This document shows positions 24,459 to 33,120 of a stretch of DNA of 43,866 nt, in pieces. Source of the DNA: Acidimicrobiia bacterium (GTDB taxonomy: Bacteria > Actinomycetota > Acidimicrobiia > Acidimicrobiales > UBA8592); NCBI GenBank assembly GCA_030431575.1, contig JAUIIS010000006.1, forward strand, positions 1-43,866, given 5' to 3'. Position numbers and translations under genes: made by a program. The notes below the pieces were generated by a model. That model did not search any database. It was not told the DNA's origin and worked only from the letters and a program-made list of their open reading frames with translations. Each line of letters starts with the position of its first letter. Positions within the stretch are counted from its first letter, which is position 1.

Positions 24459-25898
24459 CTACATCCAAGACAGGCGATCGGTCTCCACCGCAGCCAAGAT
24501 GAGGTCCCGCAGAGCGTGGGCTTCTTCCAACGCCAGCATGCCAATAGACACCGTGCCCGCGGCAGTAACCACGTCGACCTGAGCCAAACTGCGGCGACGC
24601 TGGAAGATGGTTTGGGTGACCGACACCACGTTTGTTTTGCGCAACGAGGTTTGGCGGGTTTCGGTGCTGACAACCTGCTTGGTTAGCGCCAGTTCCGAAC
24701 CGATGCCCCAACGCGTGGTCCGCACCTCTCGGCGGCTGACCAACCACACCGCTACGGCCAGGAGGGGCAACGCCGCGACGAACGGATTGAGGAACAGCGC
24801 TCCTACAACGGCCACCGGCACCAAGACCACCAGCGCATTGCGAACCGCCAGATAGGTCTGCGCCGGGTGGATGCGGCGATCCAACGCAGCAAGGTCTCGG
24901 TCTACGTGGGCCAGGCGGCGAACGGTGGCTAGCTGCTTATCGTCGCAGCCAACCAAGATCAGGTCGCCATCGCCAATAGTGGAAAGTTGCACCTGGCGTA
25001 TCCCGGCCCGACGTTGCAACGGATTCTGCGTGCTGGACACCACCTGCACTCGGGCAACGGTGCTGGCTTTGCTCGTGCGAGACAACAAACCCGACGTTCG
25101 GCGGAGACTGGTTGCGGTGGCTCGGAGTGTCAGCTGCCACTCCCCCAGGAACACCTGGGCGATGTTCAAGGCCACGCTGATGGCAAGCACACCAAAGATT
25201 GCGGCCGGAACCCACCACCACTGGAAACCACCAGGGTCGATATCAGGAACGTCGTCACCCAGTTCGTCTCGGATCTGATCGCCAAAGGCAAACAGCGGAG
25301 CCAAAAGCACGAGCGCTGCCAGCGGCCAGACGGTCAGCGCAGTGATCAGCAATCGCTTGGGCGGATGCGTGAAGATCACGCGTTCGGCAGCTGCTCGGGC
25401 GTCGACGGATACGGCGGCCGCTTCGGCTTCTGGCCGTATCGCAGCGTGCTGCGGCGCGGCAGTCACCACTTGCCGTTGCAGCTCTTCTGCCAGCGGCCGA
25501 GCAATGGCATCGATGGTGAACTCGGCCTCGGCCGTTCCGGCCGTGTCGACACTGACCTTCACCAGCCCGGTGAGGCGATGCAGCAGCTCCTGGTCGATGG
25601 CCAAGCTCTGGATGCGGTCCGCGGAAATGGTGAGCCGGTCGGCTCGCAACACCCCCTTGTTAACCACAAGCTCGCCGTCGATCACCTGGAACGTGTAGCG
25701 CCACCACGCCAGCACTGAGACAACACCAAACAACAGCACTACGACGGTGGCCAGCACGGCCACGCCATTGAGTGGCGAGCGCAGCAGAAAGAAAGCAGCA
25801 ATGGCCAGCTGCACCAGGCCAATGTTGCGCAGGATCCGCACCCCCAAGAACACCACGGCCAGCGGCGACTGACGCTGCGGCGTTGACAGGTCAACCAT
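24459..25898 (-). CDS. Bacterial PH-domain membrane protein (YdbT-like)
   Basis: This 479-residue protein has several hydrophobic helix pairs separating three bPH2-type PH domains (about 50-130, 245-320 and 395-475). Repeating cues are GVLRADRLTISADRIQSL, RTSGLLSRTSKASTVARVQ and TETRQTSLRKTNVVSV, each followed by QxxxQR-like motifs. YdbS/YdbT proteins are membrane proteins of unknown job, often linked to envelope stress. The ATG at 25898 overlaps the stop of the upstream gene (ATGGTTGA), so the pair is coupled. A frame open to 26225 overlaps the partner gene and is not real. Confidence 0.85.
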   Translation of the reverse strand: MVDLSTPQRQSPLAVVFLGVRILRNIGLVQLAIAAFFLLRSPLNGVAVLATVVVLLFGVVSVLAWWRYTFQVIDGELVVNKGVLRADRLTISADRIQSLAIDQELLHRLTGLVKVSVDTAGTAEAEFTIDAIARPLAEELQRQVVTAAPQHAAIRPEAEAAAVSVDARAAAERVIFTHPPKRLLITALTVWPLAALVLLAPLFAFGDQIRDELGDDVPDIDPGGFQWWWVPAAIFGVLAISVALNIAQVFLGEWQLTLRATATSLRRTSGLLSRTSKASTVARVQVVSSTQNPLQRRAGIRQVQLSTIGDGDLILVGCDDKQLATVRRLAHVDRDLAALDRRIHPAQTYLAVRNALVVLVPVAVVGALFLNPFVAALPLLAVAVWLVSRREVRTTRWGIGSELALTKQVVSTETRQTSLRKTNVVSVTQTIFQRRRSLAQVDVVTAAGTVSIGMLALEEAHALRDLILAAVETDRLSWM

Positions 25899-26586
25899 CG
25901 AGATGCGGAGGCAACGACCCCGGTGGCTGGTGGCCTGGAGGGCTTGACGAGCTCGGAGGGCTTGGGTAGGGCAGAGCTTGCTCTGGCGTGGCCGGCGGTG
26001 CCTGCCGTGGTGTGACCGGCGGTGGAGGCGAAGGTGCCAGCTCGTCGAGAAGGCCGGCGTTCGTGGGCGGCTGGTCATCCTCTTGCACATCAGCACGTTC
26101 GGTGATGAAGACCTTGATGCGTTGGGCTTCGGCCTCGGTGAGCCCGGGAATACCAATGTTTGGTCCCGCAGAACTAACCGCCAACGACGCCAAACCAAAC
26201 AGCCGTTCCAGGGGGCCGCGCCCAATATTGATGTGTTGCACCCGGCTATAGGGCAGCGAAGCCACCCGATGCTGAATCACGCCGCTGCGCAGCGAAAGAT
26301 CGTGTTCGCGAAGCTGGTAGCCCAGTCGCCGTACTTCGGCTACGGCCAACGCCATGAGCGCTGCCACATACAGGATCGCGATACTCATCACCACCGTTGC
26401 TACGACGCCGTCCTTCACAGCAACCGCCAAAACGGCCGCACCGGTCAAGACCAAGACACCAAAGATGGAACGACCCACAAGCCGTACTCGCAGGTAACGA
26501 GGGTGAACACCGGTGAATGCTTCGTCAGCTAGCTGCGGGAGTGTCGACACATCCAGTGGTTCGTTGGTGAACCGGTCGTCAGGCAT
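25891..26586 (-). CDS. Bacterial PH-domain membrane protein (YdbS-like)
   Basis: This 231-residue partner of the downstream PH protein has two hydrophobic helices (about 38-60 and 62-82), one bPH2 domain (about 90-165, with LREHDLSLRSGVIQHRV and LPYSRVQHINIGRGPLERLFG), and a proline-rich cytosolic tail from about 175. The domain and the GPLERLFGLASL motif are classic YdbS. It and the next gene form an operon. Its start at 26586 lies 46 bp from the NUDIX gene end, also minus strand, so it may be read through from it. Confidence 0.85.
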   Translation of the reverse strand: MPDDRFTNEPLDVSTLPQLADEAFTGVHPRYLRVRLVGRSIFGVLVLTGAAVLAVAVKDGVVATVVMSIAILYVAALMALAVAEVRRLGYQLREHDLSLRSGVIQHRVASLPYSRVQHINIGRGPLERLFGLASLAVSSAGPNIGIPGLTEAEAQRIKVFITERADVQEDDQPPTNAGLLDELAPSPPPPVTPRQAPPATPEQALPYPSPPSSSSPPGHQPPGSLPPHLDG

Positions 26587-27666: not shown

Positions 27667-30600
27667 TCACGAACCCAGACCGGTCAGGACTTCCTCGAGT
27701 GACCGCAGGCCTTCGGCTAGCGAGGCGGCAAGGGTGGCCAGTTCGGTTTCGCCGACTTCGATGGCGATAGGGAGGTCCAGCTTGACGGGAACGTTGGCTT
27801 CGATAGGGATGGTTTCGTTCACCGCAATGTCAAGCTCGAGGTTGACCGGAACCTCGATGTCGACGGGCACGGTGACATCAACGGGGACCGAGAATCCCAA
27901 CGGGGTGTCGACTTCGATGCGCGTATCGAAGCTTTCCTTGATGGGCAGGGTCTCATCGATGGGGACAACGAGTTCACGGTCGAGGACTACCTCGGTTTCG
28001 ATGTTCACCTGCTCGTCAATGTTGACCTCGAACTCGATGGTGGAGTTGGCGAACTCTTCCAGCCCCGAGATGGCCTCTTCTAGCCCGGCGCTGATCGTGG
28101 GTTCGAGCTCCACGATCTGTTCCTGGAAGCCAGTGACCTGCGACGCGTACAACGCGGCCCCAGCCTCGACGCGTTCTAGCTCGCTTTGGGTCTGGGCCAA
28201 ATCGTCTTGGGTCGAGGACAGCTGACTAAACAGCACCCCCATCAGCACGAAGCCCAGCAATATCAGCGCGCCAAGCGCACCAACCACTGCGGCCGAGTGT
28301 CGTTGTAGCCACGACATGGGAACTCCTGTCTCTAAGACTTCGGTGTGGTCACCAGCAACGGAGGCGGTGACGGGTTCTCGTTCTTGGGTTGGGTCCGCCC
28401 CAACGGGCCCCCAGCCTTCGGGCACCTTCAAAGGCACGGCAATCGGTGGGCTGCCAGCAGCACTGCCGCTGGTAGGCGAGGTGCCACTGGTTACCAGCGG
28501 CTCGGCGGCCTTGCGTAGCGCGAACGCCAAGGCGAGGCCGATGGCGGTGATGACGCCGGCGGCCAGGAAGGTTTCGGCAATCGCCTGGGCAGTCAACGAC
28601 CCTTGCGCTTCGATAACGGCGGATTCGAATCCCGGGTCGTCCAGAGGTGGCAGCTCGATATCGCCACGTAGGGCATTGAAACGGGCCAGGCCCCATGCAG
28701 TCAGCAGCGAAAGGCCCACGCTGAGGCCCATCAGGCGGATGACCATCAGCGTGGCTGCGGCTGCGCCGCGTTTGTCGGGTTCGGTGCTGTCGACCACCGC
28801 GGCCGAGGTAGGCGCAGACACCAAGCCCAGGCCGGCGCCCAGCAAGCCAAGTTGGGCGGCGAAGGTCCAATACGAACTATCGGCTTCCCACGTGAACCCC
28901 ATCAGCAGGTAGGCCGCGACCGCGGCCCCCATACCCATGATGACGGGCAGCCGGTAACCCCAGTTGGTGGTGAGGCGTCCGCCAACGTAGGACGTGACCG
29001 CCATGGCCGCGGTCAGCGCCGAAAGCACCCAACCGGCAGCAACCGCCGAATCTTCGACATCGATCTCGATGGCGTTGATGAAGATTGGCACGTCGACCAT
29101 GGAGATAATCAGCGCTGCCCCCACGATGAAGTTCACAGCCAACGCCACTTGGAGGGTTCGGCCCCGGAACACAGATGGGTCAATCAACGGATCTGGCGAC
29201 ACTCGCTGGTGCCACACAAACAAGGCCCCAGACCCGACAGCCACCAGATAGAGCCAAGCGAAGTTGAAGCCCCCGCCGCCGGTGAGTTCTTCGAAACCAC
29301 TAACCGACTGAATCTCAGCGTCACCAAGCAAGGCCAGGTTCAGCGTGACAATGCAGGTGGTTAGCAGCCCCGCGCCGCGCCAGTCGACCGTGGTGGCACG
29401 AGGTCCCTGGTCATGATCGGTTAGCGCCCACCACACTGCGGCCATGCCAGCCAGGGCCAGGGGAACATTCAGCCAGAACTGCCATTCCCACGACAAGAAG
29501 CGCACCAGCACTGCGCCATACATGGGACCCCACACCCAGCCCATCGTTTCGATAGCAGCGAGGGTGCCTAGCGCCCGGGCCCGCTTGGCCTCCGGGTACA
29601 CATCGGCCACCACCGCCAACGCCACCGGCACCATAGCCCCGCCACCAATGGCGGTCAGCACTCGAGCAAACAGGAACGGCCCCAACGAATCCATCAGCGG
29701 TATCAAGATGGTGCCCAACAAGAAGATGGCGTACGCACCAACAAAAGTGTTACGCCTGCCGATGACGTCGCTGAGGCGCCCAGCAATGGGCATGATGGCT
29801 ACGAACGCAATGAGGTAGACGTTGACTATCCACGCGGCGTCGTCGAGGCCGTCGGGCAGTACCAAGCCCAGGTCCAAGATGATTGGCCGCAACATGGTGG
29901 AGACAACCGTCAGGTCGTCGGCGGCAACGAACACGCTGAACGCCACGGCGATGAGGACGGCCCTAGGCGAGACACGCCTGGGCCCAGCCGCTTGCGTGGT
30001 TGGGGCGGACGTCGGTGTCCGTGTCGGAACGGCAACTACCGCTTCACCGTCGCTTGTCTGTGCTCCAGCCAGCAGCGGTTTAACCACCAAGGCCACTCCA
30101 ACAAGGCCACCTAACACCAGACCGATGGTCGCTACGGTGCCCCACGGTGACCCGCCACCCGCAGCGGGTTCGCCGTTGTACTCGGTGAGGTCGAGAGTCC
30201 ACGAAGCCACATCGTCGCCAAACGCCGTGTCGAACTCCACGGCGGTCACCAAGCCCGTGACCGGGTGAATCCACAGGTCGATCACGACGTCCTGGTTGCG
30301 AACAAGGCCCGCGGTCACGCCCTCGATGCGCTCGGGCGGGGCTGTGCCGCGGTAGTGATAGCGGGGTCCGTCGCGATCCTCTTCGCCCACAAACTCCACG
30401 TCTTCGAGACCCACAATCAAGGGCTTCCAGCCGTTGACGGGGTCGAAGAACGTTCTCGGGTCGAGGTCATAGCCCGACGGCAACGGCTCGAACTCGCCGG
30501 TCACGGGGTTGCTCAGCAACGTCTCTCCATCGCTGGCAATGGCACCCAACTTGGTACTGAGTGACCCATCGATGGTGACGGTGAGGAGCGCTTCGGCTTC

Positions 30601-30855
30601 GTCGGGGACAGTGACAGTGCCGGTCACCTCGTCGACAGCAATGCTCTCGACTTCGTCGATGTACACAGGCGCGCCGCTGCGCACCAAATGAAAGCGAACA
30701 CTTTCAACCTCGCCCATAGCCTCGGCCGCTGCAGGCAACGCCGTCGCAGGATCGGTGTCCAAGACATCGCCATCAAGGCTGGCGCTACCACTGCAGCCTG
30801 CGACAACAAGGGCAGCCAGAAGCAGTAGCCAGGCTGGAAAGGTGGGTCGATGCAA
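27667..30855 (-). CDS. Fused LprG-like lipoprotein / P55-like MFS exporter with coiled-coil VP-rich tail
   Basis: This single 1062-residue chain starts with a lipoprotein signal: hydrophobic WLLLLAALVVAG followed by lipobox cysteine C21. Residues about 30-230 resemble the LprG/LppX lipid-binding domain. A helix (240-262) and linker lead to an MFS permease (about 298-800) with motif A GRLSDVIGRR and a large loop between the last helices (LARFNALRGDIELPPLDD), as in mycobacterial Rv1410c (P55). Another membrane helix (about 855-876) starts a tail of coiled coil and VP-rich repeats. In mycobacteria LprG and P55 are separate operon neighbours that export triacylated lipids. The TTG at 30855 is chosen because GAAGGA lies 6 nt upstream and it starts the signal peptide; the frame is open to 31113 in the opposite-strand promoter region. 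Confidence 0.88.
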   Translation of the reverse strand: MHRPTFPAWLLLLAALVVAGCSGSASLDGDVLDTDPATALPAAAEAMGEVESVRFHLVRSGAPVYIDEVESIAVDEVTGTVTVPDEAEALLTVTIDGSLSTKLGAIASDGETLLSNPVTGEFEPLPSGYDLDPRTFFDPVNGWKPLIVGLEDVEFVGEEDRDGPRYHYRGTAPPERIEGVTAGLVRNQDVVIDLWIHPVTGLVTAVEFDTAFGDDVASWTLDLTEYNGEPAAGGGSPWGTVATIGLVLGGLVGVALVVKPLLAGAQTSDGEAVVAVPTRTPTSAPTTQAAGPRRVSPRAVLIAVAFSVFVAADDLTVVSTMLRPIILDLGLVLPDGLDDAAWIVNVYLIAFVAIMPIAGRLSDVIGRRNTFVGAYAIFLLGTILIPLMDSLGPFLFARVLTAIGGGAMVPVALAVVADVYPEAKRARALGTLAAIETMGWVWGPMYGAVLVRFLSWEWQFWLNVPLALAGMAAVWWALTDHDQGPRATTVDWRGAGLLTTCIVTLNLALLGDAEIQSVSGFEELTGGGGFNFAWLYLVAVGSGALFVWHQRVSPDPLIDPSVFRGRTLQVALAVNFIVGAALIISMVDVPIFINAIEIDVEDSAVAAGWVLSALTAAMAVTSYVGGRLTTNWGYRLPVIMGMGAAVAAYLLMGFTWEADSSYWTFAAQLGLLGAGLGLVSAPTSAAVVDSTEPDKRGAAAATLMVIRLMGLSVGLSLLTAWGLARFNALRGDIELPPLDDPGFESAVIEAQGSLTAQAIAETFLAAGVITAIGLALAFALRKAAEPLVTSGTSPTSGSAAGSPPIAVPLKVPEGWGPVGADPTQEREPVTASVAGDHTEVLETGVPMSWLQRHSAAVVGALGALILLGFVLMGVLFSQLSSTQDDLAQTQSELERVEAGAALYASQVTGFQEQIVELEPTISAGLEEAISGLEEFANSTIEFEVNIDEQVNIETEVVLDRELVVPIDETLPIKESFDTRIEVDTPLGFSVPVDVTVPVDIEVPVNLELDIAVNETIPIEANVPVKLDLPIAIEVGETELATLAASLAEGLRSLEEVLTGLGS
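28315..28327 (-). promoter_or_regulatory. Strong internal ribosome binding site inside the exporter gene
   Basis: On the minus strand AGGAG lies 5 nt before an in-frame ATG at 28317, at the junction between a disordered linker and the tail of the exporter. Translation from it would give a separate 216-residue protein (27667-28317): one membrane helix, coiled coil and VP-rich segment. This is one of the best ribosome sites in the window, which suggests that two products may be made, or that the fusion is recent and kept the old start. Confidence 0.5.
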
Positions 30856-31018
30856 AGAGCGTCCTTCGTTCGGCTCTACCAACGCAGATACTACTTCCCA
30901 CATTCCCGACGCCATCTTCGCCCCACCTCCCAGCTGCGGCACGCGAGCGAGCTGGGCTGCACCAAGGGGACAACGAGCGCATAGCCTCAGACGGGAGCCC
31001 AACAACCCGCTGGACACC

Positions 31019-32014
31019 GTGACGCCAACAACCGACTCAGTACCCGATGACTCATGGATCCAGGCCTCACGGGTAGTCGTCACCGCAGGCAAAGGCGGGG
31101 TTGGATCAAGCACCCTTGCCGCAGTGACCGCGTTGGCAGCCGCTCAACAGGGTGCCAAGGTCTTGTTGGCCTCGGTCGATGGCAAGCCGAACCTGGGGCG
31201 CCTGTTCGACGGCAGCCCACTCACCTCGCGCCAACGCGACCTCTATAGCGACCCTTCCGGCGGCCAGGTCCGCGGCCAGAGCATCTCGCCAGAGCAAGCA
31301 TTTGGCGACTATCTCGACCTCCGCGGCGTGGGCGGGCTGATGCGCAGAGTCGTCAAGGCTGCGTCGCTTGACGTCGTTGCCGCTTCGACACCGGGACTGG
31401 AACATCTGCTGGTCTTAGGCAAGATCAAAGAACTCGAACGAGCAGACGACGCCGACCTCATCGTGGTTGACGCTCCGCCAGCGGGCCACGTCACGCCCTT
31501 CCTGGCATCGGCAACAACCGCACTGGAAGCTGTGGCCCCCGGCCCGCTCCGAACGCAAGCCGAAGAAGTCCACGCCATGCTGAGCGACCCCCAACGCACC
31601 CAAGTCGCCATTGTCACCCTTCCCGAAGAGACTCCCGTCAACGAAGCGATCGAGCTCCACGCAGATGTCTGCGCACTGGGCTTGTCGGTTGCCCCTCTTG
31701 TCGTCAACGGCTGCTGGCCCGAACAACCCGGTCTTCACCAACCGGTCACCGCCGCGGCACGCGAGGCCGGCGTGACCTTGACGTCGCGACAGCGGACGGC
31801 ACTGGTGGCTTCCAGTCGGTTCGGCGCTGCCCGACTAGATCTTCAAGCACACCAACTTGATCGACTGGATGCTGCGCTGCCCCTCGCTCGGATCCTGCTT
31901 CCGCGTCTGCCAACGCCCCGTCTTACCTGGAGCGACCTCGAGGTCTTGGCCTCAGCCCTACGCGGCGCTCCCCAATCGTCAAGCCAGCACCAGCCAGACG
32001 GGACAACAACGTGA
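31019..32014 (+). CDS. Get3/ArsA-like ATPase, subunit lacking the P-loop lysine
   Basis: This 331-residue ATPase is of the SIMIBI ArsA/Get3 type. The deviant Walker A reads AGKGGVGSST: the signature lysine K25 is kept, but the P-loop lysine is S30. Switch II-like LIVVDAPPAGHVTPFL is intact. It probably pairs with the next gene, like mycobacterial BagA/BagB (Rv3679-Rv3680), to form one composite site. The start is a GTG at 31019 with only a weak GGA before it; the frame is open upstream but would cross the divergent exporter promoter. The stop overlaps the next start by GTGA. Confidence 0.85.
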   Translation: MTPTTDSVPDDSWIQASRVVVTAGKGGVGSSTLAAVTALAAAQQGAKVLLASVDGKPNLGRLFDGSPLTSRQRDLYSDPSGGQVRGQSISPEQAFGDYLDLRGVGGLMRRVVKAASLDVVAASTPGLEHLLVLGKIKELERADDADLIVVDAPPAGHVTPFLASATTALEAVAPGPLRTQAEEVHAMLSDPQRTQVAIVTLPEETPVNEAIELHADVCALGLSVAPLVVNGCWPEQPGLHQPVTAAAREAGVTLTSRQRTALVASSRFGAARLDLQAHQLDRLDAALPLARILLPRLPTPRLTWSDLEVLASALRGAPQSSSQHQPDGTTT

Positions 32015-33120
32015 CAGCCGATCCCGCCGCTGCCACCTTCGCAGAGCTGGTAGACACCAGCGCGCTGGTAGTCACCTGCGGCCCAGGCGGCGTTGGCAAG
32101 ACCACGACCGCTGCGGCCATTGGACTCCTAGGTGCAAGGGCAGGCCGTCGTGTCGTTGTGGTGACCATCGACCCTGCCCGTCGCCTGGCCGACGCGTTGG
32201 GCATTCCGGCCGAAACCGCCGACGATCCTCACCGCGTCCGAGGCCTTGGTCGCATGAAAGGCACACTGGACGTACTCATGCTCGATGCCGAGCGCACCTT
32301 TGACAGGCTCATCCTGGACAAGGCTGGCAAACAGGCCGAGGGCATTCTCAACAACCCGATCTATCGCAGCATCGCCGGCTCGTTGTCCGGGGCCCAGGAA
32401 TACATGGCCATCGAACGCCTGCATCAACTGCACGAGGCCGGTGAGCACGATCTCATCGTGGTGGACACGCCACCGTCACGCCACGCAGTCGACATCTTGA
32501 CTGCGCCAGACCGACTGGCGTCCTTCTTTGGCCACCCCGTGTACCGCACGCTTGTTGGTCCAAGCCGCGCAATGGCCCGGGTGACCTCGACGGCCACGGC
32601 GGGGTTTGCGTGGGCAGTCAAACGCCTCGCTGGCCCGCAGATTGTCGAGGACACGTTGGACTTCTTCAGCTCTATTTCAGGTATGGAGGACGGCTTGCGC
32701 AAGCGGGCCGCCGCCGTCTCGAAGCTCCTACGGAACCAAGACACCAGCTTTGTGTTGGTCACAAGTCCTCGGGCCGAAGCCATCGACGAAGCGCTGCACC
32801 TCAACGAAGCACTGCAAGACGGCGGCTATCCCATGCGGGCCGCCGTGGCGAACCTGGTGCATCCCCTGCCGCCGGCCTGCACTATTGATCCCGCGCTTGT
32901 CCGTGCCGGATCGGCCCTTGACGATCAGCTCCGTCACCACGGTGAGCTCACCGCGCTCGCCGTAGCAGAACGAGCCGAGTTGGCGACGCTCGTCGACGTC
33001 ATCGAGTCAACCAAACACGACGATGTGGTGTTCTGTCAGGTAGAGCTGCTGGCCCAAGACGTCCACGCCCTCGACACCCTGGCCCAAATCGCCGACGCGC
33101 TCTCGGCACCAGCCGCTTGA
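32011..33120 (+). CDS. Get3/ArsA-like ATPase, subunit lacking the signature lysine
   Basis: This 369-residue ArsA/Get3-family ATPase has a Walker A that reads CGPGGVGKTTT: P-loop K30 and T31 are present, but the signature lysine position is P25. LIVVDTPPSRHAVDIL is the switch region, and TIDPARRLADALGI matches the family's first conserved strand. The lesion is the mirror image of the first subunit. In Get3 the signature lysine reaches across the dimer to the partner's nucleotide, so a heterodimer would have one complete site. The GTG start is inside the upstream stop (GTGA). Convergent with the glutamine-synthetase-like gene. Confidence 0.88.
   Translation: MTADPAAATFAELVDTSALVVTCGPGGVGKTTTAAAIGLLGARAGRRVVVVTIDPARRLADALGIPAETADDPHRVRGLGRMKGTLDVLMLDAERTFDRLILDKAGKQAEGILNNPIYRSIAGSLSGAQEYMAIERLHQLHEAGEHDLIVVDTPPSRHAVDILTAPDRLASFFGHPVYRTLVGPSRAMARVTSTATAGFAWAVKRLAGPQIVEDTLDFFSSISGMEDGLRKRAAAVSKLLRNQDTSFVLVTSPRAEAIDEALHLNEALQDGGYPMRAAVANLVHPLPPACTIDPALVRAGSALDDQLRHHGELTALAVAERAELATLVDVIESTKHDDVVFCQVELLAQDVHALDTLAQIADALSAPAA

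Follow-up and report, generated by a model that had tools for sequence, protein, structure and literature searches.

The mycobacterial pair of the lipoprotein LprG and the MFS pump Rv1410 is the closest described system to the locus presented here. Knock-out and overexpression experiments provide evidence that this pair exports triacylglycerides (TAG), and TAG binding, a TAG export phenotype and a role for the segment between TM11 and TM12 have been reported (PMC4709180, PMC10576003). A stable LprG-Rv1410 complex was not demonstrated in mycobacteria by cross-linking or purification, and the partners are interchangeable between species (PMC10576003). For this reason a natural fusion of the two proteins is valuable.

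Such a fusion was examined in a stretch of 43,866 nucleotides (the window), which belongs to one contig of a single MAG of an uncultured Acidimicrobiia bacterium (83% complete, 518 contigs). The reading frame 30855..27667 on the (-) strand runs without interruption over 1062 codons from a TTG start, and its modules follow each other in the order lipobox Cys21, LprG-like domain, Rv1410/P55-type MFS and C-terminal tail.

27667..30855, (-): complete fusion ORF of 1062 aa, from the TTG start at 30855 to the stop at 27667
30862..30867, (-): Shine-Dalgarno (SD)-like GAAGGA ahead of the TTG start (from the sequence)
30793..30855, (-): signal peptide and lipobox VAGC, Cys21 being the predicted lipidation site (from the sequence)
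30175..30753, (-): LprG-like lipid-binding domain, residues 35-227 (Pfam; PDB profile; AF2 and Foldseek)
30070..30144, (-): extra transmembrane helix predicted in the insert between LprG and MFS, residues 238-262 (hydropathy; no confident AF2 structure)
28486..29964, (-): Rv1410/P55-type DHA2 MFS transporter, residues 298-790 (Pfam, PDB search, alignment)
28567..28683, (-): extended periplasmic segment between TM11 and TM12, residues 725-763 (alignment; compared with PMC10576003)

The presence of the LprG-like domain, the P55-type MFS and the tail in one frame is thereby confirmed. A first-pass annotation of this DNA had given the same coordinates and domain order, which agree with the open frame and with the order of the Pfam domains, and the covalent joining of LprG to the MFS that it had described is seen as a continuous frame across the join. 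The lipobox that it had called intact reads LVVAGC by eye from the translation, with the Cys, whose acylation is predicted, at residue 21. A chance origin of the arrangement was set aside because the same three modules recur in dozens of Acidimicrobiia, mostly as an LprG gene followed by an MFS-tail gene. Around the fusion gene, two ArsA-type ATPases lie side by side at 31055-33120 (+), divergent from it, and downstream on the same strand (24459-26586) there are two adjoining bPH_2 (bacterial PH) genes and then a NUDIX gene.

Residues 35-227 matched Pfam PF07161 (LppX_LprAFG) with an E-value of 4.6e-13 and 49.9 bits against a curated cut-off of 24; a separate search of the same protein gave 54.4 bits. 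A profile built from 35 homologues and run against PDB sequences ranked LprG first (3mh9, 7.9e-13), followed by LppX (3.8e-5) and LprF (1.8e-4). Structure prediction with AF2, performed on the LprG part and on the tail separately, yielded a block-mean pLDDT above 90 across nearly the whole LprG domain. When this model was submitted to Foldseek the top match was 3mh8 (E 5.1e-12, TM-score 0.81 by target length) and the second was the TAG-bound LprG 4zra. A half-barrel fold of the LprG type, with LprG itself as the closest relative, is thus supported for the modelled domain, for which lipid binding is predicted. The half-barrel had been proposed earlier for residues 30-230, its absence being named there as a refutation; the assignment to LprG is supported by Pfam, by the PDB profile and by the fold match to 3mh8 alike.

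The MFS module matched Pfam MFS_1 at residues 305-583 (4.5e-36). Its best solved relative is 8pnl, a 'putative triacylglyceride transporter' that corresponds to MHAS2168, the Rv1410 homologue of M. hassiacum. With the single sequence 8pnl was found at 5.9e-45 versus 5e-20 for EfpA, and with a profile of 34 MFS sequences at 3.9e-87 over almost the full length versus about 1e-35 for EmrB/EfpA. Motif A is present as GRLSDVIGRR at residues 359-368, and alignment to 8pnl showed that the Asp of TM1 (D314), the Arg of TM4 (R398) and the ion-lock Arg of TM11 (R707, which aligns with R426(MH)) are kept. The ion-lock Glu of TM5 (E157 in MHAS2168) is not: Thr437 aligns at its position, and a Glu/Asp conserved across the family stands one residue before it (E436). 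Proton coupling may therefore differ from that of Rv1410. The ion-lock Glu is described for mycobacterial homologues only (PMC10576003). The TM11-TM12 segment ('LPPLDDPGFESAV') has about 39 residues and is well conserved among the relatives; it measures 31-38 residues in mycobacterial homologues (PMC10576003). The sequence comparisons support an Rv1410-type pump for which TAG transport is predicted. That the pump resembles P55, with motif A and a long periplasmic loop, had been noticed before, and the assignment stands with 8pnl far ahead of any other pump.

Which lipid would be handled by this pair was considered in the setting of the genome. Five matches to WS/DGAT enzymes were found in this 83% complete genome, in which neither an Emb arabinosyltransferase nor an MCE/MlaD domain (PF02470) was detected. 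Because Emb and the MCE domain were not found, a mycomembrane of the known kind is not expected as the destination. Whether there is an outer lipid layer had been left open by the first-pass annotation, and these markers, together with the WS/DGAT matches, answer it in part. WS/DGAT enzymes occurred in 27/30 genomes that bear the tail against 237/365 others (Fisher p 0.003, kinship and genome size being uncorrected). Class-wide, the association of LprG with DGAT is weak (49/67 versus 264/395), so that an argument for TAG cargo from class-wide co-occurrence was dropped, the association being confined to the tail-bearing subset. A TAG or related neutral lipid is favoured as the cargo, other multi-acyl lipids being possible. 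The same hand-off might serve a different lipid, such as a glycolipid, a phosphatidylinositol mannoside (PIM) or lipoglycan-like molecule, or a wax ester. This is conceivable, given that triacylated PIM and lipoarabinomannan are further ligands of mycobacterial LprG (PMC4709180, PMC10576003), that WS/DGAT enzymes produce wax esters as well as TAG and that the genome carries no mycomembrane markers, but with TAG-bound LprG among the closest structures we consider it rather unlikely.

The tail (residues ~847-1062) gave no credible Pfam or NCBIfam family; its matches to Prefoldin and GspM were far under the cut-offs and were discarded as coiled-coil noise. The following features were assigned to it:

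28048..28317, (-): residues 847-936, predicted as a single unbroken helix that combines the membrane segment with the coiled coil (AF2)
28225..28287, (-): transmembrane helix within the tail, residues 857-877 (from the sequence)
27757..28041, (-): predicted beta-hairpin, each of its two strands (939-983 and 989-1033) 45 residues long, hydrophobic on one face (AF2)
27673..27744, (-): predicted C-terminal helix, residues 1038-1061 (AF2)

In the AF2 monomer model (pLDDT 88.7, pTM 0.45) a helix of 90 residues leads into the hairpin, which is followed by the short helix. The hairpin would be about 15 nm long at 0.33 nm per residue. On its hydrophobic face 73% of the residues of strand 1 and 91% of those of strand 2 are Val, Ile, Leu, Phe or Met; the opposite face is polar and contains prolines that are mostly spaced every six residues and share one edge parity. 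Hairpin length was 94-95 residues in 37/37 homologues, whereas the preceding helix ranged from 44 to 113. A fold search of the tail against the PDB returned no significant fold (best E 4.5e-3, probability 0.2). Matches to viral structures were mostly to long fibrous phage proteins at low TM-scores and were taken as a coincidence of shape.

Good-scoring matches to a tail profile were obtained in 30/395 Acidimicrobiia genomes. Among 337 genomes sampled from the phylum, only Acidimicrobiia were found to carry the tail, and the plasmids searched yielded none. Within the LprG-MFS loci the tail belongs to the same operon. MFS and tail were fused in 20 of the 26 loci placed on a tree of the MFS, and in the other six a separate tail gene stands behind the MFS. 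The tree, in which deep support is limited and several branches are long, contains one supported clade of split genes nested within the fused ones, so that some of the splits are probably secondary. There are also Acidimicrobiia lineages in which LprG, MFS and tail are all separate, and lineages that have no tail. The tail had been described as an added part, with no use assigned to it. It belongs to a family that is conserved in Acidimicrobiia and is as a rule fused to the MFS, and the fold predicted for it is very unusual. In some families standalone tails occur away from LprG and MFS, and the rod is consequently not exclusive to this pump. At two loci (L090 6417-9478 and L091 6130-3078) an ABC exporter (ABC_membrane and ABC_tran) follows a standalone tail gene at a distance of about 550 bases, and the rod may therefore serve another exporter too. 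One genome (G371) has two loci with an LprG gene followed by an MFS-tail gene (L081 and L082).

Between the MFS and the tail the sequence offers a second place for translation to begin:

28323..28327, (-): AGGAG, a ribosome-binding-like site within the ORF, 5 nt ahead of the ATG of codon 847 (from the sequence)
27670..28317, (-): predicted second product, a free tail protein of 216 aa from the ATG at 28317 (codon 847; inferred)

At least one in-frame ATG preceded by an SD, scored as GGAG, AGGA, GAGG or AAGGG at normal distance from the ATG, was present at this junction in 21/22 MFS-tail fusions, the one in the window included; for two of the 21 the site scored may be a wrong one, and genomes that are kin do not count as independent cases. 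In other parts of these genes only 8/297 in-frame ATGs were preceded by an SD (Fisher p 2e-25 against the junction). Counted per ATG the junction gave about 21/56, still far above 2.7%. The conserved SD-ATG at the MFS-tail junction, like the conservation of the tail family, is an observation that the first-pass annotation did not contain. Since the SD-ATG is kept, the tail is probably also made as a free protein. A fused product is unavoidable whenever the MFS is translated to its end, and the free tail is a prediction. The earlier description as one polypeptide thus applies to the single continuous frame, whereas the locus likely gives two products because the tail probably has its own internal start.

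The hairpins of several tails, one fused and several free, could assemble into an oligomeric beta-barrel or needle that passes through the wall as a tube or a solid spike, shaped like pore-stem hairpins or MCE needles. The long stem hairpins of the lysenin and aerolysin pores were among the nearest PDB folds, the tail contains a coiled coil and the internal start would make extra subunits available. However, those fold matches are not significant (E 0.02-0.09), and the prolines of the polar face, with their single edge parity, should disfavour an unbroken hydrogen-bond network from one hairpin to the next; we regard such an oligomer as possible but not probable. Somewhat more doubtful is the proposal that the tail would be a membrane-anchored, envelope-spanning lipid slide, a hydrophobic track of fixed length (15 nm) along which acyl chains would travel from LprG through the cell wall in bacteria that have no mycomembrane; it would be made both fused and free by way of an internal start kept since an old fusion.

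The reading that we consider fairly probable for the locus as a whole is that of an LprG-Rv1410-type exporter of neutral lipid (triacylglyceride-type), in which carrier and pump form one chain that is extended by a rod reaching into the wall. The MFS would take a triacylglyceride or a similar multi-acyl lipid out of the core of the cytoplasmic membrane and present it, by proton antiport, at its outer opening next to the long TM11-TM12 segment. The lipid on Cys21, together with a linker of about 10 residues into the extra membrane helix, would hold the LprG domain above this opening, so that this domain could accept the exported lipid without diffusing off. The rod, consisting of membrane helix, coiled coil and 15-nm hairpin with its continuous hydrophobic face, might stand in the wall beside the pump and guide or shield the lipid on its way outward, or else keep the assembly fixed in the wall; additional rod subunits would come from tail translated separately at the internal start. 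Cargo, direction, hand-off, rod function and internal-start translation are what we infer in this scheme. Counting against it are that only one MAG contig is known to carry the three-way fusion and that the tail was modelled as a monomer with a pTM of 0.45. The direct hand-off from pump to lipoprotein proposed in the first-pass annotation is reasonable as a domain-fusion argument, for which one genome is the support.

The module could instead be a DHA2-type efflux pump for drugs or toxic compounds, in which LprG and the rod provide stability or wall anchoring and lipids are at most a secondary cargo. Most DHA2 pumps export drugs, the best NCBIfam match of the MFS was the EmrB-type TIGR00711 (below its cut-off) and the first description of Rv1410 was that of a drug pump (PMC10576003). 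Against this, the E-value of 8pnl is 25 to 50 orders of magnitude better than that of any drug pump, the lipid-binding partner LprG is conserved and the mycobacterial lipidomics point to lipids (PMC4709180), which makes drug efflux improbable as the main function.

At the join between LprG and the MFS there is an insert of 42 residues that carries the extra transmembrane helix and that was present in 0/34 separate LprG proteins. Its hydrophobic stretch, TVATIGLVLGGLVGVALVV, has a mean hydropathy of 2.39, and a Lys and several Arg follow just after the helix on the predicted cytoplasmic side. In the window protein the insert replaces the last LprG segment, which reads FxIxPP in relatives. AF2 did not place the helix confidently because no homologue covers the insert. 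The domain of a lipoprotein is located outside the membrane and the MFS chain begins inside. A fusion of LprG to the MFS consequently needs an additional membrane crossing, and the predicted helix fits this topology. In codons 258-303 no ATG, GTG or TTG was found, and no MFS product that lacks the linker is therefore expected; the next start-type codon, 304, falls within TM1 of the MFS and has no ribosome site. Because the insert is new sequence with a predicted transmembrane helix and there is no internal start, the join is very probably real in the organism, so far one genome, and an origin by frameshift or missed stop was rejected.

Elsewhere a separate LprG gene precedes the MFS gene, as observed in 24 loci of GTDB genomes and in the LprG-bearing ones of 20 further regions. 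Besides the window, no PF07161 match with an open frame of at least 700 codons was found across 395 genomes from the class and 397 from the phylum. Two genomes with long open frames, G084 and G045, had been candidates for further three-way fusions and were rejected, as the DNA shows a separate LprG gene in both. The former is a single-contig genome (C1, 4830181 bases) with an LprG gene followed by an MFS-tail gene. In G045 an unknown ORF of about 160 residues (L004 1013-1501; the same locus as L025) lies between LprG and the MFS-tail gene, and the MFS seems to start at a CTG that overlaps a stop (CTGA). At another locus (L038 7776-8615) the LprG gene occupies two frames, a possible frameshift or pseudogene. 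The first-pass annotation had suggested searching Acidimicrobiia for the same architecture: an LprG gene followed by an MFS-tail gene is widespread, and the three-way fusion has so far been seen in this genome only. It had also held that separate genes in relatives together with a frameshift-type error here would speak against the fusion; the relatives do have a separate LprG, and a frameshift-type error was not borne out. That the organism has two genes like all its relatives and that the join arose as an artefact of assembly or base calling, as the single fragmented MAG, the separate LprG of every relative and the lack of a second long LprG-containing frame might suggest, is very improbable, the insert being neither a lost stop nor a shifted frame and a separate MFS having no start codon.

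Neither a fusion of this kind nor the tail was described in the papers searched, although a description may exist elsewhere. With LprG tethered near the pump, carrier and pump can act side by side, and the fusion provides one polypeptide on which structure and transport can be studied, as well as a direct test of how lipid leaves the membrane. The conserved rod suggests a third component, absent from the mycobacterial work, in bacteria that seemingly have neither arabinogalactan nor a mycomembrane. The conserved internal start predicts two products per gene, which is testable.

When the locus is compared with known systems, its LprG domain resembles LprG of M. tuberculosis (Rv1411c, P27; PF07161) in its lipobox, its predicted half-barrel fold, its best profile and fold matches and its position directly before an Rv1410-type MFS. 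It differs in being joined to the MFS by way of an added transmembrane helix and in the replacement of the FxIxPP segment by the linker. The MFS shares with Rv1410c (P55) and MHAS2168 (8pnl) a near full-length profile, motif A, the Asp of TM1, the Arg of TM4, the ion-lock Arg and the extended TM11-TM12 segment, whereas its ion-lock Glu is shifted by one residue and LprG and the rod are fused to its N- and C-terminus. To MCE (MlaD/PqiB) needles and the stem hairpins of beta-pores there is a likeness in broad shape only, that of an elongated amphipathic element beside the membrane; sequence and significant fold matches are lacking, the tail has no Pfam match and no MlaD domain was found in the genome. 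Pairing of LprG with the MFS is conserved through Acidimicrobiia and extends to Dehalococcoidia: in loci of the SAR202 group of Chloroflexota (L041-L045), outside Actinomycetota, a gene for an LprG-like lipoprotein is followed directly by the MFS gene, without a tail. Close counterparts are the operons of Ilumatobacteraceae and other Acidimicrobiia, which have the same modules in the same order, a mostly fused MFS and tail and the internal SD-ATG, and in which LprG is a separate gene; fusion of MFS and tail is thus usual among the relatives, and the join of LprG to the MFS is special to this genome.
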